This document shows, one piece after another, positions 1,714-28,461 of a stretch of 30,136 bases of DNA. The translations under genes and the position numbers were made by a program. The stretch lies in IMG/VR virus record IMGVR_UViG_3300046507_000397, positions 1 to 30,136 of that record. One strand, written 5' to 3'. Each line of letters begins with the position of its first letter. Position 1 is the first letter of the stretch. The DNA comes from a virus. Under the pieces are notes generated by a model. It was given only the letters and a program-made list of their open reading frames with translations, was not told the origin of the DNA and searched no databases.

Positions 1714-1715
1714 GG

Positions 1716-4708: not shown

Positions 4709-4715
4709 AGTTGTC

Positions 4716-9783: not shown

Positions 9784-9786
9784 GAG

Positions 9787-12249: not shown

Positions 12250-12257
12250 GTGGGATC

Positions 12258-14378: not shown

Positions 14379-14527
14379 CGTAAGAATCCTTAGGGGTCCT
14401 AAGGGATACTTAGGAATATCTGAATTTGTTTATTATGATAATTACTGTAGGGAGTACGTAAGGAGACCTTAGGAAACTTAAGGATCCTAAGGCCCCCTTA
14501 CCCCCAAGGTCCGCGGCGACCGATGTG
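14379..14527 (-). promoter_or_regulatory. Intergenic control region with six CCTWAGG-type palindromes
   Basis: 149 bp between the fibre gene and the tail hub gene. The centre (about 14415-14445) is strongly AT-rich, unlike the rest of the window. It is flanked by CCTTAGG or CCTAAGG or near copies at 14388-14394, 14398-14404, 14409-14414, 14467-14473, 14477-14483 and 14486-14492. CCTTAGG and CCTAAGG are the same site read on opposite strands. An 11 bp palindrome ATTATGATAAT is at 14432-14442. The site is well placed to hold a leftward promoter for the long structural operon or a protein-binding array. I cannot name a promoter with confidence. Confidence 0.5.
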
Positions 14528-15439
14528 CTAGGTCTTCACTGCGAACACGAATGACATCGCCTCGGGGCGCGTCTCGGTCGTGCCGGTGTTCGCCGGGGTG
14601 CTCACGGTGAACGCGTGGTTGTGCGTGGCAGAGCGCCCAGCAGTGGTTCCGCTGAAGGCGTGTTCGTGGTCAGTGTTGGTGGTCCCGGTAACGCCTGCGA
14701 GGGGATTCCTGAGGCCACCGCTGCCGCCACCGGCGTTCACCGCACCGCCGTCCCAATTGTCCACACTGTGGGCGTGAGACGCGTTGCGGTTCATCGAGCC
14801 GGTCGTGCCCGAGAACGTGTGCGTGTGCTCCTGCGTCTCCGCAGCAGTCGTACCGGTGAAGTTGGGATGCGTATGGGGCCCAACGGTGTTCGCCTGCGCA
14901 GTCAACGCCGCTGTTGCAGCGGTGCGTGAGCGCGGGAAGCGGCCCGCCGTGTACATGTTTGGCAGGGTGAACGTCGAGCCACCTTGGCCGAGATACGCGG
15001 CGAGCGCCGGGTAGACGCTGTTCGGCCACGTAGCACCATCCAGCTCCAGAAACTCGTATGGCTGTCCCGCGGAGCCCTTTACGGCATTGCCGATGTTAGC
15101 AGCGTCAACGAGGAACATGTGGACCGAGCCCAGCGGGGCGGCGTTCTTCAGTTGGCCACCGCCCACCGAGATCACGCCCGCAGCAGACCTGTAGAGGCCT
15201 AGGGTGGGCTCGGCCGCGAACGAATACGCAGGCTTGGCCGAAGTGCCGGCCGCAGGGATCAACTGGTTGTCGGTGTTCGTCAGGGCGCCCGTGTGGGCCA
15301 GGGTGTTCTTGACGGTCGACTTCAGGAGGCGAAGGTGGTCGTCGGCGCCGCTCAGGGGATCCGAGGCGGCCGGATTGGACTGGACCAAGTCCGAAACGTA
15401 TGTGGCGGTCTCTAAGGGCACCGTGGGTTCCAATATCAA
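14528..15439 (-). CDS. Tail collar/fibre tip protein with HxH motifs
   Basis: About 303 residues. The N-terminus (TATYVSDLVQSNPAASDPLS then GADDHLRLLKSTVKNTLA) is the common virion-attachment start of phage fibre proteins. Residues 126-171 (PYEFLELDGATWPNSVYPAL and TFTLPNMYTAGRFPRSR) are a phage tail collar domain. The rest has five HxH pairs at H189/H191, H205/H207, H222/H224, H258/H260 and H273/H275, in the style of metal-coordinating fibre tips such as T4 gp37. It ends RPEAMSFVFAVKT. The start is uncertain: an in-frame stop lies at 15446-15448, and the candidates are TTG 15439, TTG 15433 and GTG 15421, none with a strong ribosome site. It is the first gene of the leftward structural block. 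Confidence 0.78.
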   Translation of the reverse strand: MILEPTVPLETATYVSDLVQSNPAASDPLSGADDHLRLLKSTVKNTLAHTGALTNTDNQLIPAAGTSAKPAYSFAAEPTLGLYRSAAGVISVGGGQLKNAAPLGSVHMFLVDAANIGNAVKGSAGQPYEFLELDGATWPNSVYPALAAYLGQGGSTFTLPNMYTAGRFPRSRTAATAALTAQANTVGPHTHPNFTGTTAAETQEHTHTFSGTTGSMNRNASHAHSVDNWDGGAVNAGGGSGGLRNPLAGVTGTTNTDHEHAFSGTTAGRSATHNHAFTVSTPANTGTTETRPEAMSFVFAVKT

Positions 15440-15560
15440 TTGTGGTCAAAATGAGAGACATCGTTGGCCTCTCTGGTATAGGTGGTGGTGACTTCCCCAT
15501 AACCCATTGATATTCCACACAATCATCTAAAAGTCGCGATTGGGCCCCAATGTTGCCTAG

Positions 15561-16661: not shown

Positions 16662-17054
16662 ATGGAATTGAACGTCACCCACATGATCGAGGCGATTAAC
16701 GACGCTCCGCCGCTAGTCGGCAGCATTGCCCAGTATGGGCCTGATGCAGCTGCAATGACCTGGGGCAACTCTAAGGCCTTTGGTCGTGAGCATCCGCTCT
16801 TGTCGACCGATGCGGAGCGTGAGGCCGCGCGGGATCACTTCCGCTCCTATGGCGCGTGGTCCGATGAAGAGATTGACGCATGGTCCGATGAGGAGCTGCA
16901 AGGCATCACGTGCCAAGAGGTTGCCCACCAGATCAGTGAATTGGAGATGTTCGCCACAGAGGAGGAATACCGCGAGGCGTCGGAGCGCGGCACCGTGAGC
17001 GGTCGCCTGTACAAAGGCGATGACGGCCAATGGTACTGTTATTTCGGGGACTAA
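16662..17054 (+). CDS. Acidic early protein, unknown
   Basis: 130 residues, rich in E and D, with WSDEEIDAWSDEELQGITCQ in the centre: a repeated WSDEE element (about residues 66-79). It ends with an aromatic YKGDDGQWYCYFGD. The ribosome site AGGGGA lies before the ATG. Small acidic early phage proteins are often DNA mimics or inhibitors of host enzymes, but this one has no recognisable fold. It is separated from the next gene by 50 bp with an AGGAG site. Confidence 0.6.
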   Translation: MELNVTHMIEAINDAPPLVGSIAQYGPDAAAMTWGNSKAFGREHPLLSTDAEREAARDHFRSYGAWSDEEIDAWSDEELQGITCQEVAHQISELEMFATEEEYREASERGTVSGRLYKGDDGQWYCYFGD

Positions 17055-17104
17055 CACCGCTCGAATTGCGTCCAATTAGCTGCCACATGATAGGAGTTTG
17101 ACAC

Positions 17105-17617
17105 ATGGCTAAGACTGACCGCACCCACATTGTTTGCCCTCTCACCAGCGAAGGCCTGACCATCACGCTGCAAGCGGTGCTCACCGAGGCCGCTAAGGAT
17201 CAGCGAGGCCAAGACGTATTCCACTGCACGCTCACCACGGATTATCCGGGCGAGATGGTTCTCACCTATCGCATGGGCACGGGCCATCGCGTGACGGGCT
17301 TTGCGAACAAGCGCCTTCGCTATCCTGCCACGGTGAACGATTGGGAACGCTCGCGCCCCGTAGCCCCCACGGTTGCCTCGGTGCTCACCAGCATCGGCAT
17401 GGATTGCCAGACGACCCGCGAGATGCCGCGCGATGAAGCGGAGGCCTGCGATTGGATTGTGGCCGAGATGGGCCTCGGGGACACGGGCAAGCCTGGGGAC
17501 ACGCTCCGCATGGTCCGCGCGCTCAATAAGCAACTCGACGACCTGCGGGCCTTGCTGCGTCACACGGGCGCTGATGTTGATCACTTCGCCGATTGGGCCG
17601 CTGGGTTGGAGGGCTGA
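17105..17617 (+). CDS. Early protein of 170 residues, unknown
   Basis: Begins MAKTDRTHIVCPLTSEGLTI; the first 75 residues look like a beta-sheet domain (DVFHCTLTTDYPGEMVLTYR, then MGTGHRVTGF). The second half is helical: PTVASVLTSIGMDCQTTREM, then DEAEACDWIVAEMGLGDTGK, ending in a DDLRALLRHTGADVDHFADW helix. A clear AGGAG lies 8 bp before the ATG. No enzyme motif recognised. It is followed after 3 bp by the next gene, whose GGAGG ribosome site is inside this gene's end, so the two are probably co-translated. Confidence 0.65.
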   Translation: MAKTDRTHIVCPLTSEGLTITLQAVLTEAAKDQRGQDVFHCTLTTDYPGEMVLTYRMGTGHRVTGFANKRLRYPATVNDWERSRPVAPTVASVLTSIGMDCQTTREMPRDEAEACDWIVAEMGLGDTGKPGDTLRMVRALNKQLDDLRALLRHTGADVDHFADWAAGLEG

Positions 17618-17620
17618 GCC

Positions 17621-17923
17621 ATGACGATCCTCAATCAACGCACCGCGCTGGGCACTGAGCTATCCGCCGCCGATCAACGGTACGTGCTGTCGGCTTTCAC
17701 TCATCGCTTCACGCGTGACCACAAGCCCGCATGGGCCCGCAAGCCCCGCGCGGATGGCACGGCGTATCCTGTGCAGTTCGCATCGGATGCCGACTGGCTC
17801 GCCCATACGCGCTTCGTGGTGACCAAATCGGGCCGCGTGTCCCGCAAGGCCTGCGAGTGCCAGTCTAGCCCTACGTGGCCGGATGGTCGCCCAGGCCTGC
17901 CCAATCCCTTCGTCGCCGCCTGA
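17621..17923 (+). CDS. 100-residue early protein, unknown
   Basis: Strong ribosome site (GGAGG, 8 bp before the ATG). Contains HRFTRDHKPAWARKPRADGT and FASDADWLAHTRFVVTKSGR, then the CECQSSPTWPDGRPGLPNPF tail. Basic and Trp-rich, with a single CxC pair. I associate the DADWLAHTRFVVTKSGRV style with short phage proteins of unknown role. No function assigned. Confidence 0.6.
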   Translation: MTILNQRTALGTELSAADQRYVLSAFTHRFTRDHKPAWARKPRADGTAYPVQFASDADWLAHTRFVVTKSGRVSRKACECQSSPTWPDGRPGLPNPFVAA

Positions 17924-17938
17924 CCAGCCCGAAACCTA

Positions 17939-17982
17939 GGGGAGCCCCACGCTCCCCAATGGTCGCCGCGTGTCCGCGCGGC
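17939..17982. other. Two adjacent hairpins between early genes
   Basis: Hairpin 1: GGGGAGC (17939-17945) and GCTCCCC (17951-17957) with loop CCCAC. Hairpin 2: GCCGCG (17965-17970) and CGCGGC (17977-17982) with a 6 nt loop. No T-run follows, so attenuation or transcript processing fits better than full termination. Confidence 0.45.
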
Positions 17983-18035
17983 CTGATGATGGGCAATGCC
18001 TCTATCAGCAAACACTAGGAAACAAGGGGTTTCCG

Positions 18036-18263
18036 ATGCGAACACACAAAGGCGTTTACTACTTCCCGACGTTCGACGCGGCCCGCGATTACGCCATGTC
18101 TCACCATTGGCCGCGTGATCGCATCATCTTCTACACACTGGGCTGGGCGATACAGCGCGGGATCTCAGGCGACTACATTGGTCCCGCGAGCGCGTCCGAA
18201 CGCGAGGACCGCGAGGCCCTGCAGTCTCTCGCCGACCTGGAGCAATCCCGCGATGCAGTCTGA
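18036..18263 (+). CDS. 75-residue early protein, unknown
   Basis: Start chosen at ATG 18036 because AAGGGG lies 6 bp upstream; the frame is open further upstream, but that part covers the two hairpins. The product has an aromatic first half (HKGVYYFPTFDAARDYAMSH then WPRDRIIFYTLGWAIQRGIS) and a charged helical tail. This resembles the small phage proteins that carry YYFP..eAA..YA in the first 20 residues. Unknown function. Confidence 0.6.
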   Translation: MRTHKGVYYFPTFDAARDYAMSHHWPRDRIIFYTLGWAIQRGISGDYIGPASASEREDREALQSLADLEQSRDAV

Positions 18264-18345
18264 TACCTGGGCTTTCTCATTCGGTGTCGCGCTGTGGCTT
18301 GGTGCCATGGCGTGGGGCATTGGGTTCATTGTGAGGTTCATATGA
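18253..18345 (+). CDS. 30-residue single-pass membrane peptide
   Basis: MQSDTWAFSFGVALWLGAMA then WGIGFIVRFI: one Trp-rich hydrophobic helix. It overlaps the previous gene by 11 bp and the next by 4 bp (ATGA), as in a translationally coupled series. Unknown role. Confidence 0.5.
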   Translation: MQSDTWAFSFGVALWLGAMAWGIGFIVRFI

Positions 18346-18704
18346 CAACTAAACCACATACGCACTTATCTGCCGACACGGCGCATGTTCTCAACGAATG
18401 GGCTGATCTTGGTAGCAACGCGCTCCAGTGGCTCAAAAATATCAAGGACGGCATATCGACGGCAGATGAAGCACTTGCGGACATGCAGTTTGATTATGAC
18501 CGCGTGCTGGCCCTGTCCCGCGCAGAACCGCAGGCATTGAGCGTGACGGATGAGGAATGGCAGCGCGCGCTCGACTGCGCCATGTCCTGCCTCAAGCCAC
18601 CGCTCTACGTCAGCCGCAGCGCAATGGATAACGCCATGCAGCACGCTTTCGGGATGCTGTCACTGGCGGTGACGCGCCCACAGCCCCGAGGTCCCCATGA
18701 CTGA
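18342..18704 (+). CDS. 120-residue early protein, unknown
   Basis: ATG at 18342, within the stop of the preceding peptide, with GAGG 5 bp upstream. Helical and mildly acidic: NEWADLGSNALQWLKNIKDG, then STADEALADMQFDYDRVLAL and EEWQRALDCAMSCLKPP. Ends with a Pro/Arg-rich tail. No motif recognised. Confidence 0.6.
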   Translation: MTTKPHTHLSADTAHVLNEWADLGSNALQWLKNIKDGISTADEALADMQFDYDRVLALSRAEPQALSVTDEEWQRALDCAMSCLKPPLYVSRSAMDNAMQHAFGMLSLAVTRPQPRGPHD

Positions 18705-18933
18705 CCAATGGCAACACTGGATCGATAAGGCCTTCCTGGCTGGCTGGCGTGTCCGCTGGTGCGATGACGTCGAGGGGCATGTGATTGTGTCCCCGGCGCG
18801 CCCCAGGCATCCCAGCGTGTCCCTGGGCCACTACACGGACGAACGCGCGGCATGGCGCGCCGCCGCGAACCTTGCGCACTTGCAGCATTGTAGGGATCCG
18901 ACCCATACAAAGGTTGCAGAGTTTTCCCGGTAG
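18697..18933 (+). CDS. 78-residue early protein, unknown
   Basis: Overlaps the previous gene by 8 bp. Small alpha/beta domain: HWIDKAFLAGWRVRWCDDVE, then HVIVSPARPRHPSVSLGHYT and ERAAWRAAANLAHLQHC. The last codons pass through a -10-like TAGAAT at 18931-18936 with no matching -35. Unknown role; last gene before the 18934-19046 control region. Confidence 0.55.
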   Translation: MTDQWQHWIDKAFLAGWRVRWCDDVEGHVIVSPARPRHPSVSLGHYTDERAAWRAAANLAHLQHCRDPTHTKVAEFSR

Positions 18934-18951
18934 AATACTGCCATGCTGATT

Positions 18952-18991
18952 TGTCACTTGACCACGGGTCGGGCGGGACTCAAAAGTGGCA
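18952..18991. promoter_or_regulatory. Inverted pair of TGYCACTT elements, operator candidate
   Basis: TGTCACTTGA (18952-18961) and, on the opposite strand, TGCCACTTTTGA (18980-18991) face each other over 18 bp upstream of the gene at 19047. The first copy overlaps a TTGACC (-35-like, 18958-18963), although no convincing -10 follows. The same element recurs at 19430 and around attP (21289, 21358, 21437). Confidence 0.45.
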
Positions 18992-19046
18992 ATTGGAAGG
19001 CGCACAACCCACAATAACTTAACATAAAAGCAGCGGTAATCTGGCA

Positions 19047-19424
19047 ATGAAACCCACGTTCACACTCGACAGCAATAGCCGTGCCCAATCCGACGTGAAG
19101 TCTAAGGTCCTGGCCCATGACATCACCGTAGGGACACCCGTGATCACAACGGCCCCCTACGTCACCGAGCGCGGCGTGCTGCCCACGGCTTCTAAAGGTT
19201 TCGTGAAGTACATTGATGAAACCACAAGCGAGGTGGGGATACTTATGGAAGGCATGGAGCCGGCGCTGGTGCACTGGGATAACATGCTGGTGCTGGTGCC
19301 ATACGACACTGAGGATCTGCTGGCTGTGCTGGAGTTCCAGAGGGCGAAGGGGGCCACCGAGCGGCGCCTGTTGACTTACGCGGGGATTGCGGCGGCGTAT
19401 CTGTTTGCCCTGTTTCAGCCTTGA
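19047..19424 (+). CDS. 125-residue protein with C-terminal membrane helix
   Basis: The N-terminal 95 residues look beta-rich and soluble (VGTPVITTAPYVTERGVLPT, then KGFVKYIDETTSEVGILMEG). The last about 20 residues (RLLTYAGIAAAYLFALFQP) form one membrane helix, so the protein is probably tail-anchored with its domain in the cytoplasm. No family recognised. TGCCACTT-type elements lie both before (18952-18991) and after it (19430), suggesting its own transcription unit. Confidence 0.6.
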   Translation: MKPTFTLDSNSRAQSDVKSKVLAHDITVGTPVITTAPYVTERGVLPTASKGFVKYIDETTSEVGILMEGMEPALVHWDNMLVLVPYDTEDLLAVLEFQRAKGATERRLLTYAGIAAAYLFALFQP

Positions 19425-19429
19425 AAAGC

Positions 19430-19442
19430 TGCCATTTGACTA
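19430..19442 (+). promoter_or_regulatory. TGCCATTTGACT element: -35-like hexamer overlapped by operator-like repeat
   Basis: TGCCATTTGA at 19430-19439 is a close copy of the TGCCACTTGT repeats at attP. The overlapping TTGACT (19437-19442) is a near-consensus -35. The -10 would fall near 19460-19466 (TGCTTA), which is weak. Transcription would enter the small membrane gene at 19504 and the regulator at 19643. Confidence 0.4.
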
Positions 19443-19468
19443 AAGACGTGCACGGTGCAATGCTTAAG

Positions 19469-19484
19469 GTTCCGTGTACGGAAC
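19469..19484. promoter_or_regulatory. 16 bp dyad GTTCCGT-GT-ACGGAAC
   Basis: Perfect 7 bp arms with a 2 bp spacer, directly downstream of the possible -10 and 20 bp before the ATG at 19504. The short spacer makes a protein-binding dyad more likely than an RNA hairpin. A site for the MarR-like product encoded nearby would fit autoregulation, which is inference. Confidence 0.5.
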
Positions 19485-19503
19485 GAAAGGGGAGGTAAGG
19501 CCG

Positions 19504-19623
19504 ATGGCTACACTAGGTTTCATCTTGGTATTTGGGGCGTGCGTCTTGGCGGCTTTACCTTGTCGGGGATTGATCAACGTATCCGTATTCATTCTGGGGC
19601 TCATTTTCATCTATCGAGGCTAG
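19504..19623 (+). CDS. 39-residue membrane peptide
   Basis: MATLGFILVFGACVLAALPC then RGLINVSVFILGLIFIYRG: two short hydrophobic helices joined by a PCRG turn. A strong ribosome site (GGGGAGG) lies upstream. It precedes the regulator by about 20 bp and is probably co-transcribed with it. Unknown function. Confidence 0.55.
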   Translation: MATLGFILVFGACVLAALPCRGLINVSVFILGLIFIYRG

Positions 19624-19642
19624 TATAGCAGGAGTGCCGATT

Positions 19643-20038
19643 ATGGAGACTGTGTTGATGGACCACGTTAAGCCCTCGATCCCCGAGCGCGAGATTGAGA
19701 ACTGGGAGGTCATGTTGGCTTCCATAGGTCCTTGGTTCAACCTAGGGCACGGCGTGCCACCTATTGCCTACATCCGCGCATTTGCACTGGTGGCAAGCAA
19801 AGAGGGCCTGACTGTTGCCGAGTATGCCGAGCGGGCGGGCATTGCGCCCACCGTGATGACGCGCAACCTGCTCGACCTGGGCGAGGTGAACAGGCAGCGA
19901 GAGGCGGGCCTAGGGCTGATCGTGCAGGAGCGCGACCCGTTCGACCTGCGCAAGCACAGGGCGCGCCTGACGGCCAAGGGCCGCAAGCTATCGCACGACC
20001 TCGACTTGGCCTACAGCCGCATCAGGGGCCGCAAGTGA
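19643..20038 (+). CDS. MarR-like winged-helix transcriptional regulator
   Basis: 131 residues from the ATG at 19643, which has AGGAG 8 bp upstream; a GTG at 19634 is too close to that site. The helix-turn-helix is at about residues 56-80 (LTVAEYAERAGIAPTVMTRN, then LLDLG). The wing follows: QERDPFDLRKHRARLTAKGR, the D-R-H-R-LT-KG pattern of MarR proteins. MarR proteins bind DNA dyads as dimers. This is the only clear regulator beside the integrase; no CI-like or Cro-like protein was found, so it is the best candidate for control of lysogeny or early promoters. Its targets are unknown; nearby dyads are at 19469, 15818 and 14432. Confidence 0.75.
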   Translation: METVLMDHVKPSIPEREIENWEVMLASIGPWFNLGHGVPPIAYIRAFALVASKEGLTVAEYAERAGIAPTVMTRNLLDLGEVNRQREAGLGLIVQERDPFDLRKHRARLTAKGRKLSHDLDLAYSRIRGRK

Positions 20039-20130
20039 ACTGGCTCCTCGACTATGACGCGGTGCTGGTGCTGGGGGTGCTCTTGGCGATGCACTTAATG
20101 GCGGGCGAGATAAGACGTCGGATCAGATGA
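20035..20130 (+). CDS. 31-residue membrane peptide, GTG start
   Basis: The GTG overlaps the stop of the regulator gene (GTGA), with AGGGG 6 bp upstream. MNWLLDYDAVLVLGVLLAMH then LMAGEIRRRIR: one helix followed by a basic tail, suggesting N-out/C-in orientation. Sits between the regulator and integrase genes, so probably co-expressed. Function unknown. Confidence 0.45.
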   Translation: MNWLLDYDAVLVLGVLLAMHLMAGEIRRRIR

Positions 20131-20151
20131 TGGCAGAAGAGGGAATGGCCT

Positions 20152-21285
20152 ATGTCCTACACTGAGAAGCGCAACGGCAAGCCCACGGGCGTCCACATCG
20201 GCGAGGTGTATCGCAAGGGCCGCACGTTCCGGCGCCGGTTCACCACCAAGAAGGACGCGGACGGCTACGAGCTGTATGTGAAGCTGACCGGCGAGGAGCC
20301 GCCTCGGCTCGACAACACGCAGTCCACGGGCGCCCCCACGTTCGCCGAGGTCACCGAGAAGGCCAAGGCCAAGGGAGGCCCCAAGGGCAAGTGGAAGGCC
20401 GGCCGCGACGGGAGCCTGATGCAGCGCCTGGACTTCTGCGTGACCGTGATCGGCACCTACGAGGTCCCCCAGGTCACCAGGGCGGTCCTGGGGCTCATTG
20501 TGGAGCGTCTGGAGAAGAAGCCGGCCAGCACCACCCGCAAGCGCCCCCTGTCGCCGGCGACGATCAACCGCTACCTCGCCGCGGCGCATGCTGTGCTCAC
20601 ATTCGCGCACCGGGAGAACATCATGTCCGAGCGGCCCCCCGAGGCGCCCTACCTTGAGGAGGAGCCCACCCGCAAGGCCCGTGACATCCTGCAGATCGGC
20701 CAGGACGAGGTGGTGTTCCGGCTGATGCGTGAGGCCGGCCACGAGGTCGATGCGCTGTGCTGCGAGTTCCTGCTCGAGACCGGGTTCCGCCGCGGGGAGC
20801 TGCTGCGGAAACTGACGCCCGAACAGATCACCATCGAACAGGTGATGGACGAAGACGGAACGCCTGTTCCTGTGGGGGTGGCAAGGCTTCATAAGGGACA
20901 GACGAAGAACAATAAGGGCCGTGTGGCAATCCTTTCGGCCGACTTGGCGAAGAACATCAGGGCTCTAATTGCGACCAAAAGCCTGCCAGATGGCTTGCTT
21001 CTGTTAAGGCACTTCCAAAATGCGTGCGCGGCTGCGGGGTACACTGGAAACCTCGTTCTGCACTCGCTGCGCCATACACGCAATACGCGTCTCCGTAAGG
21101 CGGGCATCACAATGGAAATGCGCAAGCGTTTACTTGGACATATGAGCGACGACGTCAACGAGATCTATAACCACACGGACCTTGAGGATCACCTCGTGGT
21201 TGCGAAAAAAGTCGAGGAGTATGCGGGGGACCGGCGCAAAAAAGTCCTCAAAGCGGAAGTTGTTGCATTCGGAAAAGTGAGCTGA
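20152..21285 (+). CDS. int: Tyrosine-family site-specific integrase
   Basis: 377 residues. The N-terminus (KGRTFRRRFTTKKDADGYEL) resembles an arm-type DNA-binding domain, about residues 90-165 a core-binding SAM-like domain, and 180-350 the catalytic domain. Catalytic set: R213 in ETGFRRGEL, K252 in KGQTKNNKGR, H304 and R307 in HSLRHTR, H330 in LLGHMSDD and the nucleophile Y339 in NEIYNH. It would integrate the phage at the tRNA-Cys-like core 18 bp downstream of its stop. The ATG at 20152 has AGAGGGA upstream. The first two thirds are about 65-70% GC, but from about 20820 the GC drops to about 50-57% with different codon choice, suggesting a recombined C-terminal part. Confidence 0.93.
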   Translation: MSYTEKRNGKPTGVHIGEVYRKGRTFRRRFTTKKDADGYELYVKLTGEEPPRLDNTQSTGAPTFAEVTEKAKAKGGPKGKWKAGRDGSLMQRLDFCVTVIGTYEVPQVTRAVLGLIVERLEKKPASTTRKRPLSPATINRYLAAAHAVLTFAHRENIMSERPPEAPYLEEEPTRKARDILQIGQDEVVFRLMREAGHEVDALCCEFLLETGFRRGELLRKLTPEQITIEQVMDEDGTPVPVGVARLHKGQTKNNKGRVAILSADLAKNIRALIATKSLPDGLLLLRHFQNACAAAGYTGNLVLHSLRHTRNTRLRKAGITMEMRKRLLGHMSDDVNEIYNHTDLEDHLVVAKKVEEYAGDRRKKVLKAEVVAFGKVS

Positions 21286-21288
21286 TAC

Positions 21289-21298
21289 AGCCACTTGT
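21289..21298 (+). promoter_or_regulatory. Arm-type repeat 1 (AGCCACTTGT)
   Basis: Shares GCCACTTGT exactly with the copy at 21359-21367. Lies between the int stop and the tRNA-Cys-like core, the normal place for an integrase arm site. Could also bind a regulator. Confidence 0.5.
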
Positions 21299-21303
21299 GT
21301 TGG

Positions 21304-21345
21304 GGCCACGTGGCGGAGTGGTTACGCGCCGGTCTGCAAAACCGA
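21304..21345 (+). other. attP: attP core: 5' half of a tRNA-Cys gene (GCA anticodon)
   Basis: The segment folds as the 5' part of a tRNA-Cys. GGCCACG (21304-21310) would be the acceptor 5' strand, then TG. The D-arm is GCG/CGC with loop GAGTGGTTA. The anticodon arm is CCGGT-CTGCAAA-ACCGA with GCA at 21336-21338. After 21345 there is no T-arm (no GTTCGA) and no matching acceptor 3' strand, so it is not a working tRNA. It lies 18 bp after the integrase gene. A crossover in the anticodon arm would join this 5' half to the host 3' half and rebuild the tRNA at the int end. Confidence 0.75.
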
Positions 21346-21357
21346 GTGTCGAGTAAC

Positions 21358-21368
21358 TGCCACTTGTA
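21358..21368 (+). promoter_or_regulatory. Arm-type/operator repeat 2 (TGCCACTTGTA)
   Basis: On the RNA polymerase side of the core. It overlaps the -35 hexamer TTGTAA (21364-21369) of the promoter before the RNA polymerase gene, so a protein bound here would block that promoter. Confidence 0.55.
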
Positions 21369-21391
21369 AATCCAATTTCCCTCCCTATAAG
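21364..21391 (+). promoter_or_regulatory. Sigma70-type promoter for the RNA polymerase gene
   Basis: -35 TTGTAA (21364-21369, 4 of 6), 16 bp spacer, -10 TATAAG (21386-21391, 5 of 6). Transcription would begin near 21398, about 63 bp before the RNA polymerase ATG. It lies downstream of the attP core and so stays with this gene after integration. Confidence 0.6.
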
Positions 21392-21397
21392 AACACC

Positions 21398-21422
21398 CAG
21401 GGTCGCTTCGGCGGCCCTGTTT
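21398..21422 (+). terminator. UUCG hairpin with TTT tail: weak terminator or 5' mRNA stem
   Basis: CAGGGTCGC (21398-21406) and GCGGCCCTG (21411-21419) pair over 9 bp with one G-T wobble around a TTCG tetraloop, followed by TTT. The short T-run makes termination weak. It begins where the promoter at 21364-21391 should start transcription, so it could also be a stabilising 5' stem of the RNA polymerase mRNA. Confidence 0.6.
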
Positions 21423-21436
21423 CACGACCGAATACC

Positions 21437-21447
21437 TGCCACCTGTA
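21437..21447 (+). promoter_or_regulatory. Arm-type/operator repeat 3 (TGCCACCTGTA)
   Basis: One mismatch to repeat 2 in 11 bp and also followed by an A-run. Lies 14 bp before the RNA polymerase ATG, close enough to affect its transcription elongation or translation start region. Confidence 0.5.
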
Positions 21448-21460
21448 AAAACACGGGGAA

Positions 21461-24133
21461 ATGACTACCCAAGTGAACATGTTCAAGGACTTAGCGGCAA
21501 GTCACCACCACCTTCACCAGAAAGCGCTCGAAAGGAACCGTCCCACGATGGACACGAATTCCCTCCTTAAGGATCCCCAGGTTCTCCACGTTGAACTCGA
21601 GTTGTCCGCTGAGAAGCAGGACAAGCTCTACGACCGAGCGATGGCCAACGTTGGCTATGGGGCGACCACGGGTGGATTGGCTATCACCAATCAATACCAC
21701 GCTCTGGTCACTCAGGCTGTCACTGAGAAGCTCACTGGGCCCCGTGCGCAGTCCCATAGCTTCGCCTTCCAGATCGAGCACCTGCTCAAGAAGCTCCCGC
21801 ATGAGGTGATTGCTCTGTGTGTGCTCCAGGCTGGCCTGCATGCCATCGCCATGGAGAGCACCCAGGTCTCCGCGGCCCTCACTATGGGCCACGCGATCAA
21901 CGACGAGCTTTGGGCCGCCGATCTGATCAAGGCCGACAAGAAGCTCGCTGAGCACATCGCCAAGCAGGCCCGCGAGGCCTATGGGTCCGTCAAGAACCGC
22001 AAGCAGCTCGCCAAGAAGCTCGCGGCCAAGCTGGGCGCCTTTACGCTGCCCGACTGGACCGAGGAGATGCTGAGCCACGCCGGCACCTGGGCGATGAACA
22101 TCCTGCTCCAGGCCATGCCTGACGTGTTCCACCTGTCGGAGCCCGTGCGTGTCTGCAACCCGCTCACGGGCGAGTTCGAGGAGCAGCGTGAGTGGCTGAT
22201 CTCGGACAAGGGCCTGGAGCTGGCCGAGCGGGCGGTGTCGGAGGCGGTGGCCAAGAGCCCCGTGTACCAGCCGCGCACCGAGGTGCCCAAGGCCTGGGAC
22301 CGGTTCACGATGAACGTGGCCGAGGACGACCGCACGATGGCGCGGGCCCAACTGCTGCGCACGTCCCACAAGGACATCATCAGCGCAGCGGCCCACGCGA
22401 TCCGCACTGGCACAGCAGCGCCGGCCCTCAAGGCCATCAATGCGCTGCAGGGCGTGCCGTTCAAGATCAACACGTGGATCATGGACGTCATCCAGCAGTG
22501 CTACGACAAGGGCATCCGCGTGGAGGGCCTGCCGTACCGCAACCAGTTCGCGGTGCCGCAGCGGCTGTCCTCCGCGGAGTTCAATGCGCTGTCCGTCGAG
22601 GCCCGCAAGCTCCACGCCAAGACCATCAAGGGCCTCAAGAAGGCCAACAAGGCCAACGTGGTCGACCGTGTCGCGTTCAAGCAGGACATGGACGTGGCCG
22701 CACGGCAGGCGGTCGTCGAGCAGTTCTACTGCCCGATGAACATGGACTGGCGCGGGCGTGTGTACAGCCTGACGCACTTCAACTTCCAGCGTGAGGACCG
22801 TGTGCGGTCGATGTTCCTGTTCGCCAATGGTGAAGCCATAGGTGAGGAGGGGATCTACTGGCTCAAGGTCCACGTGGCCAACTGCGGCGCATTCGAGAAG
22901 ATCGACAAGAAGCCAATCGAGGAGAGGGTGCAATGGGTGGACGAGAATATCGCGGCGATTGCGGCGGCTGTGGCCGACCCAACACCGACCAATGCGACTT
23001 GTGCCGCTCCATGGTGGACGCAAGCCGACAGCCCCTTTCTGTTTCTTGCGGCTGCTCGGGAATTGATAGCTGCAATCGAGACCGGGCCGAGTTTCGTCTG
23101 CCACATGCCTGTCTCGTTCGACGGGTCCTGCAGCGGTTTGCAGCATCTGGCTGCGATGACGCTTGCCCCCGAGGGGTCCCACGTCAACCTGACGAACAAC
23201 GCGACCCCGGCTGACGTCTACCAACTGGTGGCCGGCCTCGCCAAGAAGCGGATCGAGGCCGACCTCAACAGCGACGAGATGCTCGGCAAGGACGAGAAGG
23301 CCCGCCCCGTTAAGAAGCTGGCTGAACTCGCCCTGGCATACGGCGTCGACCGCAGCCTCGTGAAGCGCAACGTGATGACCTTCGCCTACTCCTCGAAAGA
23401 GTTCGGCATGTCCGAGCAGCACTTCGAGGACACCATGGAGCCGCTCGAACTGAAGCTCCTCAAGAAGGAAATCGACGCGCATCCGTTCGGCGAGAGCGAG
23501 GAAGAGTGGCGGCAATGCAGCCGCTACTTGGCCAAGCGGGTCCTGGCTTCCATCAAGGAGGTCGTGAGGGGCCCAGCGCAGGCCATGGAGTTCATGCAGA
23601 AGCTTGCGAAGGCCCTGGCCCACGAAGGCAAGCCCCTCTCATGGACGTCGCCGGCAGGGCTCCCGTGCATCAACCGCTACCACGAGAACACCACGGAGCG
23701 CGTGGAGCTGTGGTGCTACGACAAGGGCATCAGGGTGTCCACGCGGGTCACGGTTGCCACGGGATACGAGACGCCCATCGCGAAGGAGAAGGCGGCAGCA
23801 GGGATTGCTCCCAACTTCGTCCATTCGCACGACGCAGCGCATCTGCTGCTCACCGTTGCCGCCTCCGCGGACGAAGGCATCGCTGACATCGCAACGGTCC
23901 ACGACAGCTTCGGCTGTTTGCCCAGCAGGGCCACGCGCTTCAACCAGATCATTCGCGAGCAGTTTCTCCGAATGTACACCGACCACGACGTGCTCGCCGA
24001 ACTACTGGAGAGCGCGAGGACTGCACTGACGCCAGCGAACCACTGGCGACTTGATGAAGCCATTGCAGCGATGCCGCAGAAAGGCACGCTCGACCTCACG
24101 GAGATCCTACATGCGAAATATGCGTTTGCCTGA
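21461..24133 (+). CDS. T7-type single-subunit DNA-directed RNA polymerase
   Basis: 890 residues against 883 in T7. Catalytic D554 is in VSFDGSCSGLQH (T7 D537) and D815 with H814 in ATVHDSFG (T7 H811/D812). The O-helix is VDRSLVKRNVMTFAYSSKEF with R631, K635 and Y643 (T7 R627, K631, Y639). The residue after Y643 is serine where T7 has G640. The promoter-specificity loop is expected around residues 735-765 (INRYHENTTERVELWCYDKG). GIAPNFVHSHDAAH is also conserved. The 30 N-terminal residues are poorly supported: the ATG at 21461 has GGGG only 2 bp upstream, and ATG 21548 with AAGGA upstream is an alternative. It would transcribe phage genes from its own promoters, which I could not identify reliably. 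It lies directly after attP. Confidence 0.95.
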   Translation: MTTQVNMFKDLAASHHHLHQKALERNRPTMDTNSLLKDPQVLHVELELSAEKQDKLYDRAMANVGYGATTGGLAITNQYHALVTQAVTEKLTGPRAQSHSFAFQIEHLLKKLPHEVIALCVLQAGLHAIAMESTQVSAALTMGHAINDELWAADLIKADKKLAEHIAKQAREAYGSVKNRKQLAKKLAAKLGAFTLPDWTEEMLSHAGTWAMNILLQAMPDVFHLSEPVRVCNPLTGEFEEQREWLISDKGLELAERAVSEAVAKSPVYQPRTEVPKAWDRFTMNVAEDDRTMARAQLLRTSHKDIISAAAHAIRTGTAAPALKAINALQGVPFKINTWIMDVIQQCYDKGIRVEGLPYRNQFAVPQRLSSAEFNALSVEARKLHAKTIKGLKKANKANVVDRVAFKQDMDVAARQAVVEQFYCPMNMDWRGRVYSLTHFNFQREDRVRSMFLFANGEAIGEEGIYWLKVHVANCGAFEKIDKKPIEERVQWVDENIAAIAAAVADPTPTNATCAAPWWTQADSPFLFLAAARELIAAIETGPSFVCHMPVSFDGSCSGLQHLAAMTLAPEGSHVNLTNNATPADVYQLVAGLAKKRIEADLNSDEMLGKDEKARPVKKLAELALAYGVDRSLVKRNVMTFAYSSKEFGMSEQHFEDTMEPLELKLLKKEIDAHPFGESEEEWRQCSRYLAKRVLASIKEVVRGPAQAMEFMQKLAKALAHEGKPLSWTSPAGLPCINRYHENTTERVELWCYDKGIRVSTRVTVATGYETPIAKEKAAAGIAPNFVHSHDAAHLLLTVAASADEGIADIATVHDSFGCLPSRATRFNQIIREQFLRMYTDHDVLAELLESARTALTPANHWRLDEAIAAMPQKGTLDLTEILHAKYAFA

Positions 24134-24302
24134 TTACGACACCGTGCGCTCGCTGACGCTTCAGCAGCGCGTGTGGAACACCCTGATCCCGAAGGCGGCA
24201 GTGGAGTTCAAGATCGAGCCCGAGGGCGTGCGCTATCTGCACGCCACCAAGGGATGGAAGTGGGTCAGCAAGAAGCGCTTCGCAATCCGAGGAGTGTACT
24301 GA
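24111..24302 (+). CDS. 63-residue protein, unknown
   Basis: ATG at 24111 inside the end of the RNA polymerase gene (23 bp overlap), with GGAG 7 bp upstream. MRNMRLPDYDTVRSLTLQQR, then VEFKIEPEGVRYLHATKGWK; basic, with a beta-rich second half. Translational coupling to the polymerase suggests early-middle expression. No family recognised. Confidence 0.55.
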   Translation: MRNMRLPDYDTVRSLTLQQRVWNTLIPKAAVEFKIEPEGVRYLHATKGWKWVSKKRFAIRGVY

Positions 24303-24303
24303 G

Positions 24304-24468
24304 ATGGAATATCAGATCAAGCATTCGTCCCCCGACCGCGTCTTCCGTGCGGCTGTGCTCAACGGCGTCCCTGTGCCCGAGCAGGCCCGCGCGGTCCTTG
24401 AGGCTCGTGGTGTTGACACCGCGGAGCTGGAGCAGCGTCTTCGGCAGCAGATCGAGTGGAGAAACTAA
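24304..24468 (+). CDS. 54-residue helical protein, unknown
   Basis: GAGGAG about 8 bp before the ATG. MEYQIKHSSPDRVFRAAVLN, then PEQARAVLEARGVDTAELEQ: amphipathic helices, slightly basic. Placed 1 bp after the previous stop codon. Unknown function. Confidence 0.5.
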   Translation: MEYQIKHSSPDRVFRAAVLNGVPVPEQARAVLEARGVDTAELEQRLRQQIEWRN

Positions 24469-24470
24469 GC

Positions 24471-24575
24471 ATGTTCGTGACCGACTTCGACAGCAACGCT
24501 GAGTACGTCCTCTACCTCGTGCCCGGGCCTTCCTCTTGTATCTGGATGATCCCCGGGACGTGGGGTGATGCGTAA
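24471..24575 (+). CDS. 34-residue peptide beside the HNH gene
   Basis: MFVTDFDSNAEYVLYLVPGP then SSCIWMIPGTWGDA. GGAG about 9 bp upstream. It overlaps the start of the HNH gene by 8 bp. It could be a genuine small protein or the 5' remnant of a gene cut by HNH insertion; the sequence alone does not decide. Confidence 0.4.
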   Translation: MFVTDFDSNAEYVLYLVPGPSSCIWMIPGTWGDA

Positions 24576-25011
24576 GGACATCAAAGACAGGCTGCTTGCT
24601 AAAGTTGACATTGACGCAGGCAGCGGATGCTGGGTTTGGCGGGGCGCAACGTATCCAACAGGCTATGGCCGAGTTCGCGTAGGCGGAAAGAATCGTAGGG
24701 CACACCGCGTGTCTTACTCAGTCTTCCGGCAAAGCATACCGCCAGACACTTGTGTGTGCCATCTGTGCGACAACCGCCTCTGCGTCAATCCAGAGCACCT
24801 CTTCCTCGGCACACAGCGTGACAATGTCGCGGACATGATCGCTAAAGGCCGACAGGCGCGTGGCCAGCGCAACGGCCGCTCCAAACTAACAGCAGAAGAC
24901 ATCGAACGGATACGCACACCTTCTGGTGTGACGTGCCATGCGCTGGCTGCACAGTTCGGCGTCAGCCATCAACACATCTCTCACATAAGGCGAGGCAACG
25001 GATGGACGTGA
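24568..25011 (+). CDS. HNH_3-type homing endonuclease with C-terminal HTH
   Basis: 147 residues from ATG 24568. The N-terminal GCWVWRGATYPTGYGRVRVG and AHRVSY (H46) lead into CHLCDNRLCVNPEHLFLGT with C64, C67, C72, N74 and H77: a zinc-ribbon HNH_3 domain. NVADMIAKGR follows. The C-terminus (LAAQFGVSHQHISHIRRG) is a helix-turn-helix that would bind the target site. Codon use is more AT-rich than neighbouring genes, fitting a recently moved element. It overlaps the following gene by 10 bp. A paralogue is at 27983. Confidence 0.88.
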   Translation: MRKDIKDRLLAKVDIDAGSGCWVWRGATYPTGYGRVRVGGKNRRAHRVSYSVFRQSIPPDTCVCHLCDNRLCVNPEHLFLGTQRDNVADMIAKGRQARGQRNGRSKLTAEDIERIRTPSGVTCHALAAQFGVSHQHISHIRRGNGWT

Positions 25012-25127
25012 TCAAACTCAACGCAGCCGATTGGCATAGCGTAATGGCCCTCAAGGCCTACCGGGCGCGCAACTACGCGGCCTATCGTCGGCACATCGGC
25101 ATCGCGGACCAACTGAGGGCTGCGTGA
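25002..25127 (+). CDS. 41-residue basic protein, unknown
   Basis: ATG 25002 lies inside the HNH gene end. MDVIKLNAADWHSVMALKAY then RARNYAAYRRHIGIADQLRA: an Arg/Tyr-rich helix. Its stop overlaps the next start by one base (TGATG). Unknown role. Confidence 0.5.
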   Translation: MDVIKLNAADWHSVMALKAYRARNYAAYRRHIGIADQLRAA

Positions 25128-25294
25128 TGGAAGGTCCGTACACCGTCGTCCCGAATAAGGACGGCCGAGGCTACGACGTGGTCCGCATGGCGCCGACCGT
25201 CGTCTCCACTGAGCTGCGCATGGGAGAGGCGGAAGCCCTCGCGTTCGCGCTCAACACACAGATCCGACTGATCGAAGGGAAGCTGCCGCGATGA
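25127..25294 (+). CDS. 55-residue protein, unknown
   Basis: MEGPYTVVPNKDGRGYDVVR, then a STELRMGEAEALAFALNTQI helix. The beta-hairpin plus EAEALAFALN pattern is common in very small phage proteins that display or modify other proteins, but no function is known to me. Coupled on both sides (TGATG and ATGA). Confidence 0.55.
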   Translation: MEGPYTVVPNKDGRGYDVVRMAPTVVSTELRMGEAEALAFALNTQIRLIEGKLPR

Positions 25295-25494
25295 AGTTCA
25301 AGAACAACAACTGGGGCGAACGCGTCCTCAAGGTGAAGGACTTCGATGACGACCGGATCGAGGTGAAGGCGTTCACGAGCAACCTCGTGTTCAACACGAA
25401 GCACAAGGGCGAGGACTTAGGCCGCGCAGTCGTCATGGACCGCAACAAGGCCCGCAAATTCGCCGAGGCAATCCTGAAGGAGACCGCAAAGTGA
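25291..25494 (+). CDS. 67-residue basic protein, unknown
   Basis: MKFKNNNWGERVLKVKDFDD, then beta strands and DRNKARKFAEAILKETAK. Built like the previous protein (beta-rich start, helix with KARKFAEAIL), so the two may be distant paralogues. ATGA overlap with the preceding gene. Confidence 0.55.
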   Translation: MKFKNNNWGERVLKVKDFDDDRIEVKAFTSNLVFNTKHKGEDLGRAVVMDRNKARKFAEAILKETAK

Positions 25495-25658
25495 AGAACC
25501 GCAAGTTCAACGTCCTGATCCACATGGGCGCCTCCAAGTTCGACGTGACCGTGAAGAACGCCGCGGCCGAGAACGTGACGTTCGACCTCCACGCCATGAA
25601 CAAGGACGAGCGCCGCAACTTCCACCGCGAGTTCATGAAGGCCTACCGTGCAAGCTGA
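25491..25658 (+). CDS. 55-residue basic protein, GTG start
   Basis: The GTG at 25491 overlaps the previous stop (GTGA), and AAGGAG lies 8 bp upstream, which decides the start. MKNRKFNVLIHMGASKFDVT, then VTFDLHAMNKDERRNFHREF. Unknown function. Confidence 0.55.
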   Translation: MKNRKFNVLIHMGASKFDVTVKNAAAENVTFDLHAMNKDERRNFHREFMKAYRAS

Positions 25659-25872
25659 TCTGGAAGCCTACAAGCCTCACAAAGGCTCCCTAAAGGACTG
25701 GAAGCGCTACGAGCACGGCGACAAGGTCTGCATCTGGGGCACCTTCGTCGACCACCCGCACTTCGCAGGTCTCTATGGTCACACGAGCTACATCGTGAGC
25801 CACAACGAGGAGGCCGGTGAGGTCGAGACGCGCAACAGCCGTTACACGCTGGTCGGCCCTGAGCTGACCTGA
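25648..25872 (+). CDS. 74-residue SH3-like protein, GTG start
   Basis: Starts at GTG 25648, 11 bp inside the previous gene. The central HGDKVCIWGTFVDHPHFAGL and YIVSHNEEAGEVETRNSRYT stretches read as five short beta strands of an SH3-like barrel. The partner is unknown. Confidence 0.5.
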   Translation: MQADLEAYKPHKGSLKDWKRYEHGDKVCIWGTFVDHPHFAGLYGHTSYIVSHNEEAGEVETRNSRYTLVGPELT

Positions 25873-25946
25873 TGTTCGAGCATCTCTTCGTCGCCTACAT
25901 GGCGGCGATCCTGATCATCGGAGCGCTCTCATGCTTCGTCGACTAA
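25872..25946 (+). CDS. 24-residue membrane peptide
   Basis: MFEHLFVAYMAAILIIGALS then CFVD: one hydrophobic helix. Coupled to the previous gene by TGATG and overlapping the next by 16 bp. Same size class as the early membrane peptides at 16226 and 18253. Confidence 0.4.
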   Translation: MFEHLFVAYMAAILIIGALSCFVD

Positions 25947-26125
25947 CCGCGGGGGCCCTGGTGGCCCTCGTTTTCATTGGGGCAGCCCACGCAGGACCTT
26001 CCTGCACCATCGACTACCCGCGGGGATTTAAGGTCCCCAAGGGCACCAAGAAGAAGCCCCTGCGCATCTGCAAGGGCGACCTTCAAGCAACCTGGGGCAC
26101 CTGCGTGTCCCGCTACAGCACCTAA
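25931..26125 (+). CDS. 64-residue exported protein with signal peptide
   Basis: MLRRLTAGALVALVFIGAAH followed by A-GP: RR-containing n-region, hydrophobic core and an AHA cleavage site near residue 21. The mature part of about 43 residues is basic with three cysteines (PSCTIDYPRGFKVPKGTKKK). It would act in the periplasm or outside the cell. Candidates are superinfection exclusion or lysis timing, but nothing in the sequence proves either. Confidence 0.6.
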   Translation: MLRRLTAGALVALVFIGAAHAGPSCTIDYPRGFKVPKGTKKKPLRICKGDLQATWGTCVSRYST

Positions 26126-26140
26126 CGGAGCTAACGACTG

Positions 26141-26407
26141 ATGTTCTCCAAAGTTTACACCTTCTTCGGCGGCCTGATCGAGCTGGCCTTCAGCGTCGAG
26201 CGGCGCATCGAGCACGACGTCGAGGCGATCATCTCGGCCTTCACCGACACCGTCACCAAGCTGGAAGCTGCAGCGGAGGCCAAGCTGGCCGAAGCCCAGG
26301 AGCTGACCCGCCAGTCCATCGAGCTGGAATCCGCCGCTGACGTCGCGCACCTCGCCTCCGAGAAGGCCCGTGCGGTCGCCGGCAAGATCAAGGACCTCGT
26401 CGCCTAA
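26141..26407 (+). CDS. 88-residue coiled-coil protein
   Basis: An aromatic N-terminus (MFSKVYTFFGGLIELAFSVE) precedes an Ala/Glu/Lys-rich helix (LEAAAEAKLAEAQELTRQSI) of about 55 residues. It could associate with the membrane by its N-terminus. It is joined to the next gene by TAATG. A role with the following membrane protein is possible. Confidence 0.55.
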   Translation: MFSKVYTFFGGLIELAFSVERRIEHDVEAIISAFTDTVTKLEAAAEAKLAEAQELTRQSIELESAADVAHLASEKARAVAGKIKDLVA

Positions 26408-26958
26408 TGCCGACCCATCACCTCCACATCTCGACCGGCTTCATGTTCATGACGGCCCTGTTCGTGGTTGCCTTCGTCGCGGTCGTCTTCGCGTTCGTCC
26501 GCAGCATGAAGCGGGACCGCCTGGAAGCCGAGCGCATCGTGGCCGAGATCAAGGCCGAAGCCGAGGTCCGCAAGGCCAATCCCGTGCGCCCCACGGCCGA
26601 GCAGATCCAACAGGTACACGGCGAGCGCTACGAGACCCGTCAGGCCGTCAACGGCACCCCGATGGGTTCTGTTGGCGTCGGTCAGGCCCCGGCCTACAGC
26701 GGCATGGGCTTGGCCGTTGCGGCCCCCGTGTATCACGCGGACCCGTTCACCGGCCTCGCGACCGGCATGCTCATTGGCTCGGCCCTGGGCCACAGCCATA
26801 GCCACGACACGACCACCATCATTCACGACAGCGCGCCGTCCTACGTGGACAGCAGCCCCTCGTACAGCTCGTCGTCCTCTTCGGACAGCGGGTTCTCCTA
26901 CAGCGACAGCTCGTCCTCCTCGTCCGATTCCTCGGGCGGCTTCGACGCAAGCTGGTAA
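26407..26958 (+). CDS. 183-residue membrane protein with Ser/Asp-rich tail
   Basis: One membrane helix at about residues 12-32 (FMFMTALFVVAFVAVVFAFV), then a charged helix (RDRLEAERIVAEIKAEAEVR). A Gly/Ala-rich, weakly hydrophobic segment with GHSHSHD spans about residues 95-135. The last 40 residues are almost only S, D, Y, F and G. The tail is low-complexity and probably disordered. No known family. Possibly an envelope-acting phage protein. Confidence 0.55.
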   Translation: MPTHHLHISTGFMFMTALFVVAFVAVVFAFVRSMKRDRLEAERIVAEIKAEAEVRKANPVRPTAEQIQQVHGERYETRQAVNGTPMGSVGVGQAPAYSGMGLAVAAPVYHADPFTGLATGMLIGSALGHSHSHDTTTIIHDSAPSYVDSSPSYSSSSSSDSGFSYSDSSSSSSDSSGGFDASW

Positions 26959-26981
26959 TTTCGAAAGACCATACGCTTTTC

Positions 26982-27521
26982 ATGACCAAGAAGATTACTG
27001 TCACGCTGCCGAAGGGCACGCTCGTCTACCCGAAGCTCAATCAGGTCGACGAGTTCAAGGGCAAACGCCGCTTCATCACCCGCATCAAGTTCGACGACGA
27101 GAACCACCGCAAGGTCGATGCGTGGCTGAAGAAAGCCGCCAAGGAACTGGGCGCCCCTGAGGGCACCAAGCTGCCCTGGAAGAAGGACAAGAAGACCGGC
27201 GAGCTGACCATCCAGGCCACCTCGGGCGAGAAGTATCCGCCAGCTCTCCTCGACGCCAAGGGCCGCGAAGTCCCGCGCTCCAAGATCGAGGTCGGTGGTG
27301 GCACCGTGGCCAAGTGCGAAGTCACCGCGAACTACTACGATGGGTTCGGCGGCGGCATCAACCTCTACTTGGGCTTCGTCCAGATCCTCGAACTCAAGAA
27401 GCGCGGCTTCAACGTTCAGGAAGAGGAAGGGTTCACGTACGAGGACGATGGCTCGGCGGACGAGGGGGACGCTGAGGCCCCTAAGGCCAGCGAGGATCTC
27501 TCGGATGACCTGCCTTTCTAG
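26982..27521 (+). CDS. Single-stranded DNA-binding protein, T7 gp2.5-like
   Basis: 179 residues. The OB-fold-like body contains TLPKGTLVYPKLNQVDEFKG, then ITRIKFDDENHRKVDAWLKK and the VAKCEVTANYYDGFGGGINL to LYLGFVQILEL segment. This is the pattern of gp2.5-like proteins. The C-terminal 29 residues are acidic and end in DDLPF, equivalent to the acidic aromatic tail of gp2.5 that contacts polymerase and helicase. Gene order (ssDNA-binding protein, endonuclease I, primase-helicase) matches T7 genes 2.5, 3 and 4. The 23 bp before it lack a strong ribosome site. Confidence 0.85.
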   Translation: MTKKITVTLPKGTLVYPKLNQVDEFKGKRRFITRIKFDDENHRKVDAWLKKAAKELGAPEGTKLPWKKDKKTGELTIQATSGEKYPPALLDAKGREVPRSKIEVGGGTVAKCEVTANYYDGFGGGINLYLGFVQILELKKRGFNVQEEEGFTYEDDGSADEGDAEAPKASEDLSDDLPF

Positions 27522-27524
27522 CTG

Positions 27525-27986
27525 ATGTCTAAACCCGCCCTAACTATCGAACCTACTTTCCGAAGTGGGCTTGAGAAGAAGGTGGCGGAGCAGCTTGAAG
27601 CGGGCGGTGTATCGTACGGCCACGAAGCACAGTGGGTACGTTACACCGTCCCGGCTCGCGAGGCCAAATACCTGCCGGATTACACGATCAATGGCACCAA
27701 CATTCTGTTGGAGGCCAAGGGTCGGTTCGGCGGAGGCAACCCGCGTTTCAAGCAGCCCGCAGGCGATGGCGCGAAGGAGCGGCAAAAGCTGATCCTCTTG
27801 CGCGAGCAGCACCCGGAATTGGACATCCGACTTATCTTCCAGCGCGCGTCCACGCCCATCTACCCAGGAAGCAAGACCACCTACGCGAAGTGGGCAGAGG
27901 ATCATGGGTTTCCTTGGAGCGACAAGGGTCGCGTACCGGAGGACTGGATCGCCGAAATCAAGAAACTCCAGAAGAACCTGAAATGA
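27525..27986 (+). CDS. Endonuclease I (Holliday-junction resolvase), T7 gp3-like
   Basis: 153 residues, about the T7 gp3 length (149). Active-site set: E17 in FRSGLEKKVAEQL, D52 in YLPDYTI, and E63 with K65 in LLEAKGRF, matching T7 E20, D55, E65 and K67. It resolves branched DNA before packaging and, in T7, degrades host DNA. It starts 3 bp after the ssDNA-binding gene and overlaps the following HNH gene by 4 bp (ATGA). Confidence 0.9.
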   Translation: MSKPALTIEPTFRSGLEKKVAEQLEAGGVSYGHEAQWVRYTVPAREAKYLPDYTINGTNILLEAKGRFGGGNPRFKQPAGDGAKERQKLILLREQHPELDIRLIFQRASTPIYPGSKTTYAKWAEDHGFPWSDKGRVPEDWIAEIKKLQKNLK

Positions 27987-28444: not shown

Positions 28445-28461
28445 AGAGAAAGTGACCTGAC

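Follow-up and report, generated by a model that had tools for sequence, protein, structure and literature searches.

A tRNA-Cys 5' half between the integrase and RNA polymerase genes as probable attachment site of a T7-like phage of Bradyrhizobium-type hosts

We analysed a 30-kb virus contig from IMG/VR (the whole stretch of 30,136 nucleotides, referred to here as the window), and found the exact 5' half of a tRNA-Cys(GCA) gene lying between the integrase gene (int) and a T7-like RNA polymerase (RNAP) gene. This site very probably serves as attP for a temperate T7-like phage whose hosts are of the Bradyrhizobium/Rhodopseudomonas type; integration there would rebuild tRNA-Cys behind int under phage transcription, while a hairpin would insulate the RNAP gene.

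The half (41 nt) starts 18 nt past the int stop codon and ends in the anticodon arm, and no intact tRNA was found in the window by ARAGORN. All close relatives keep the tRNA-Cys half at the same position. Since D-stem pairing is preserved in 5 variants of the half (GCG/CGC, GGA/TTC, GTC/GGC; D-stem/anticodon), we do not regard it as a chance match. The elements of the site are as follows.

21299 to 21344, plus strand: region of attP/attB identity, host tRNA-Cys with 5 nt of 5' flank (46 nt exact in 19/34 host genomes)
21304 to 21344, plus strand: 5' half of tRNA-Cys(GCA), comprising the acceptor 5' strand, D-arm and anticodon arm (host identity, paired variants)
21329 to 21344, plus strand: probable crossover core, anticodon arm CCGGT-CTGCAAA-ACCG (host identity stops at 21344)
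21290 to 21298, plus strand: arm-type repeat GCCACTTGT, int side (motif matches in the window)
21359 to 21367, plus strand: arm-type repeat GCCACTTGT, RNAP side (CTTGTAAA at the same place in relatives)
21438 to 21446, plus strand: arm-type repeat GCCACCTGT, the second one on the RNAP side (motif matches in the window)

GCCACYTGT has four matches in the 30-kb window, where 0.57 would be expected; three of them, at 21290, 21359 and 21438, flank the half and look like Int arm sites. A tyrosine recombinase gene (PF00589) adjoins the site, a block of 41-46 nt is identical to host tRNA and would restore the gene, and an intact tRNA together with a tRNA fragment bounds the integrated copies of two relatives, G494 (tRNA-Trp) and G351 (tRNA-Cys, 3' half). 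The preliminary description had called this site an attP and had proposed that the 5' part of the tRNA comes from the phage; the exact match to host tRNA and the integrations at matching tRNAs in relatives bear out the first claim, and the 41 nt identical to the front of host tRNA-Cys the second. The half itself was also placed correctly, except that its end, put at 21345, moves to 21344, where host identity stops.

Host tRNA-Cys genes sharing no identity with the half would have spoken against such a site; instead, the scan of GTDB reference genomes returned 34 in which the half is identical to the front of a complete tRNA-Cys, and in 19 of these the identity begins in the flank, at 21299. 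The 34 genomes are labelled Bradyrhizobium or Rhodopseudomonas, apart from one Xanthobacteraceae MAG and one 'Frankia sp. RB7'. The record with the latter title (JAUEPE010000003.1) carries a Bradyrhizobium-type tRNA-Cys with its flanks, and its organism label may be wrong. Each of the four Bradyrhizobium-genus genomes tested has a single match to tRNA-Cys. A second Bradyrhizobium-type tRNA-Cys (..ACGCAACGG..) occurs in host genes of G351, G494, G443 and G456, and it is the one that the halves in phages L027 and L029 match. For the variants of L003/L004/L006/L007 and L005/L013, whose D-stems (GGA/TTC, GTC/GGC) are changed yet paired, no host match was found in 392 sampled genomes of the family, and for the L003 and L005 variants this held when one mismatch was allowed. 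These unmatched variants may reflect either unsampled hosts or compensated drift.

The half stands within the following group of genes.

19634 to 20038, plus strand: predicted transcriptional regulator, just 5' of int (phrog_9665, 1e-17)
20152 to 21285, plus strand: tyrosine integrase gene int (PF00589, 5e-10), its tail inside the promoter-like stretch before the half
21548 to 24133, plus strand: T7-type single-subunit RNAP gene (PF00940, 1e-90; ATGGACA start conserved in relatives)

The RNAP gene had been thought to begin at 21461; its start is more probably 21548 (ATGGACAC...), which is conserved in relatives and preceded by an AAGGA box, so that about 200 nt separate att from RNAP. T7-type replication genes are present (gp4-type helicase-primase, endonuclease I), and two HNH-type endonuclease ORFs (PF13392; 24565-25011 and 27632-28444), possibly homing endonucleases, lie among them. 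Unlike in T7, the structural genes (portal, terminase and tail genes among them, at 0.6-15.4 kb; 646-15439) occupy the minus strand, opposite to the early, RNAP and replication genes at 16662-30136 on the plus strand. The same opposition is seen in the prophages of G351, G494 and G403. Because the structural genes are not on the RNAP strand, we leave membership in the Autographiviridae open. Homologues of the regulator adjoin int in G351, G494 and G403, and a regulator upstream of int is common to the window and other integrase-bearing T7-like phages. A 42-nt element including AAGTCACCACCACC is found twice, with 79% identity, at 15469-15510 (minus strand) and 21483-21524 (plus strand), just 5' of the first structural (tail-fibre-like) gene and of the RNAP gene; judging by sequence and position, it is a candidate phage promoter or leader.

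A scan with an RNAP alignment found 38 IMG/VR loci, which are not independent of one another. Many of them have, in the int-RNAP gap and running in the direction of int, a 5' half from either tRNA-Cys or tRNA-Ser(TGA). Reversed 3' halves are found in L148 (tRNA-Ser) and L164 (tRNA-Cys), and no tRNA piece was seen between int and RNAP in L160, L165, L166 and L175. In the tRNA cases of the group the tRNA homology lies on the int side of the core, and the difference between them is in how the core is oriented. On the RNAP tree, a quick tree with long outgroup branches, carriers must have switched between 5' and 3' halves at least twice, and the target must have changed at least 8 times, the latter count taking in the cyanophage and the suf-operon insertion. 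Identity of Int to that of the window is 81-85% in relatives, 50% in the lysogen G494 and 40% in G351. In three loci, L015 (12161-13255), L158 and L173, Int is without the EVVAF tail, yet the same tRNA-Cys half is present, and the -35-like element is TTGACG instead. L015 was considered as a host junction and rejected, as the DNA 5' of its half encodes a different integrase (28% identical to that of the window), making it a phage attP. Complete tRNA-Cys genes without a window-type int in L009 and L018 were read as unrelated host or prophage tRNAs, and seven T7-like RNAPs at about 30% identity (L095-L101) were dropped as no recognisable Int relative lay nearby. Searches of published phage records returned no close relative of the window phage (RNAP identity 32% or less), and a search with Int in a genome-contig database gave no match.

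Phages do pick up pieces of tRNA, and the tRNA-Leu genes of LUZ100 and of pelagiphages have been interpreted as relics of imprecise excision (PMC10134795). That the half in the window is a non-functional relic of this kind is very hard to reconcile with its fixed position across dozens of relatives, with its exact identity to host tRNA and flanking arm repeats, and with the real integrations at matching tRNAs in relatives, and we consider it highly improbable.

Lysogens were sought with RNAP in three sets of genomes, 266 from one genus, 392 sampled from its family and 16 from another genus; these searches yielded relatives, and no lysogen of the tRNA-Cys phage of the window. The most informative is a 45.4-kb prophage in tRNA-Trp of G494, a genome of the genus of G001, with RNAP 72% and Int 50% identical to those of the window. 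At its int end, the int stop codon is followed after 21 bp by an intact tRNA-Trp, the only full copy in G494, and then by secE-nusG (named by eye from the translation). At the far end, host upstream sequence runs into the first 43 nt of tRNA-Trp, after which come the phage arm, a hairpin and RNAP. The two junction copies have 43 nt in common, ending at the anticodon arm as in the window. In G403 the insertion site is uninterrupted, with an upstream part corresponding to G494 146799-148283 (84%) and a downstream part to G494 100181-101238 (92%). In a provirus of isolate genome 2927030885 (L178; RNAP 58%), whose int end is the part seen, int is followed by an intact tRNA-Ser.

The junctions predicted from the window are thus borne out in relatives. 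The intact tRNA is rebuilt at the int end (tRNA-Trp in G494, tRNA-Ser in 2927030885); a truncated 5' half, of 43 nt in G494, precedes RNAP at the other junction; the host tRNA promoter is left pointing at RNAP, host upstream region and 5' half preceding this gene in G494; and RNAP is indeed cut off from the early operon in G494, whose early genes lie, with int, at the opposite end of the prophage. A 44-kb relative in G351 (RNAP 44%, Int 40%) is of the opposite kind: an intact tRNA-Cys at the int end keeps its host promoter, and the RNAP end carries a reversed 3' fragment. Another relative prophage, in G403 (C1:188321-234323), occupies a non-tRNA site with a shared core of about 14 bp; it is flanked by cysteine-desulfurase-like and sufB-like ORFs (named by eye), and its int points at the latter.

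Following the G494 arrangement, Int of the window would recombine attP with the host's single tRNA-Cys gene within the anticodon arm that both contain. Since it is a 5' half, oriented like int, that the phage brings in, tRNA-Cys would be rebuilt behind int and would lose the host promoter. By this geometry, and as in G494, phage DNA would lie upstream, so that the rebuilt tRNA would have to be expressed from phage DNA, either from a promoter at the int end or by read-through from int. We were able to find one promoter-like element at the expected place.

21263 to 21291, plus strand: candidate substitute tRNA promoter TTGCAT-N17-TACAGC, 12 nt 5' of the half and extending beyond the int stop codon (p=0.16)

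This match is weak, at a level that chance would also give (p=0.16). A possible Int arm site overlaps TACAGC and could be an alternative reason for the conservation of that hexamer. Promoter-like elements stop 5-25 nt (in most cases 11-13 nt) short of the half. The best matches are in L178, with a -10 TATAAT overlapping the int stop codon (p=0.005), and in cyanophage P-SSP7 (L176), with TTGTTA-N16-TATAAT before its tRNA-Leu 5' half; those of L159 and L138 are also good. The scan was meant to separate 5'-half from 3'-half phages and gave no clean split: the 3'-half controls G351 and L179, which need no promoter, also reach p=0.005. Since the window match is weak and such controls score too, a dedicated phage promoter before the rebuilt tRNA may be put forward only as a guess. 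Its main alternative, expression of the rebuilt tRNA by read-through from the int promoter with no dedicated promoter at all, is a serious if lesser possibility: int and the half are on the same strand, 18 nt apart, the window promoter match is weak, and precisely this has been described for archaeal pTN3-like integrases (PMC8371274). However, an essential single-copy tRNA would then hinge on int transcription all through lysogeny, and -10-like elements are found 12-19 nt 5' of the tRNA in L178, L159, G494 and P-SSP7.

At the other end of the prophage, the host promoter and the truncated 5' half would stay behind, aimed at the phage RNAP. Between att and RNAP lies a further element.

21398 to 21422, plus strand: predicted hairpin terminator CAGGGTCGC-TTCG-GCGGCCCTG followed by TTT (-16.0 kcal/mol)

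The window hairpin was equalled in 1 of 100 shuffles, and its T-run is short. Nearly all relatives, and the G494 lysogen too, have a hairpin with T's about 53-65 nt past the core, with stem sequences that vary and pairing that is kept; at that place there is no clear hairpin in G351, L164 and L160. Because this conserved hairpin lies between att and RNAP before as well as after integration, transcription from the early operon or from the host tRNA promoter should not pass freely into RNAP, which the hairpin would thereby insulate. The preliminary description had gone further and suggested that integration itself is a switch, severing RNAP from the early operon and handing it to the host tRNA promoter so that integration controls the polymerase. 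G494 has the geometry for this: host sequence from upstream of tRNA-Trp and then the 5' half stand directly before RNAP in the same direction, with int and the early genes at the opposite prophage end; a clear hairpin is also missing in two of the three tRNA-reversed relatives (G351, L164). Against a switch, the hairpin stands between att and RNAP in both states and is present also in L148, where the tRNA is reversed, and in L165 and L175, where no tRNA was seen, and measurements in phage LUZ100 show a terminator after int as well as a phage promoter that serves RNAP (PMC10134795). With a terminator predicted before RNAP in nearly all relatives and in G494, the switch is not supported and appears improbable to us. 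An arrangement of phage promoter or int read-through, tRNA 5' half and RNAP-insulating terminator is the more likely of the two.

As a tentative extension, held at a little short of even confidence, we propose that this promoter, tRNA 5' half and terminator form a portable cassette. It would allow one phage group to move between essential single-copy tRNAs (Cys, Ser, Trp), with phage DNA transcribing each of them and the terminator shielding the polymerase from the orphaned host promoter. To our knowledge, an element that targets a tRNA hardly ever takes it away from its own promoter. In the present case phage control would extend to an essential host tRNA, and a potentially lethal phage RNAP gene would lie downstream of a strong host promoter. 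This opens testable questions on the prophage silence of a T7-like phage and on how integration sites change target and orientation, for which the lysogens in sequenced Bradyrhizobium-genus genomes are material.

That a phage-borne 5' half is a rare arrangement, as had been supposed, agrees with Islander, in which 3760 islands have 3' tRNA fragments and 159 have 5' fragments (159/3919; PMC4383910). Outside tRNA-borne phage sites, pTN3-like integrases (PMC8371274) and dusA islands (PMC4482086) resemble the window in that the element gives the 5' part of the target and hence a new promoter. The rebuilt tRNA of the pTN3-like elements is expressed from the integrase promoter, an arrangement called 'seldomly encountered' in bacteria (PMC8371274). 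Unlike the window, the former are archaeal plasmids and the latter have a protein-coding target, and neither has a phage RNAP downstream.

Several temperate T7-like phages share parts of the layout. LUZ100, of Pseudomonas, has a regulator and int ahead of RNAP (in one operon) and a terminator 3' of int, as in the window; there, both this terminator, immediately behind int, and a phage-specific RNAP promoter are measured features (PMC10134795). It differs in carrying a complete tRNA-Leu beside int, and a 5'-half attP is not described (PMC10134795). Among the temperate T7-like phages of Rhizobiales are vTRX32-1, of a group of vTRX32-1-like temperate Autographiviridae of Rhizobium, which integrates at tRNA-Leu (PMC8631192), and Rhizobium phage Pasto. 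Unlike the window, vTRX32-1 has a 12-bp shared motif and a complete phage-borne tRNA-Leu (PMC8631192), and Pasto a complete tRNA-Leu between int and RNAP. Pelagiphages HTVC019P and HTVC304P have the window's order of regulator, int, att and RNAP, and HTVC304P has a tRNA-Cys 5' half at that place; its half, in contrast, is antiparallel and on the RNAP side, and on our reading of the sequence its tRNA would be rebuilt at the RNAP end.

The closest precedent is in cyanophages P-SSP7 and S-TIP37 (Shitrit et al. 2021, PMC8776855), in which int is followed by an attP made of the first half of host tRNA-Leu and then by RNAP. Integration at tRNA-Leu was detected by PCR and no stable lysogens were found; in the main text of that paper the words 'terminator' and 'orientation' are absent, and 'promoter' occurs once, for a vector gene (PMC8776855). 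In P-SSP7, as in the window, the half is parallel to int and RNAP, a promoter-like element (strong in P-SSP7) precedes it and a hairpin with T's follows; the tRNA and the host of both cyanophages are different. Attachment sites with a 5' half are thus already known in T7-like cyanophages, and what is new here are lysogens with both junctions, a tRNA target that has changed repeatedly, and relatives that carry a 3' half and have the tRNA reversed.
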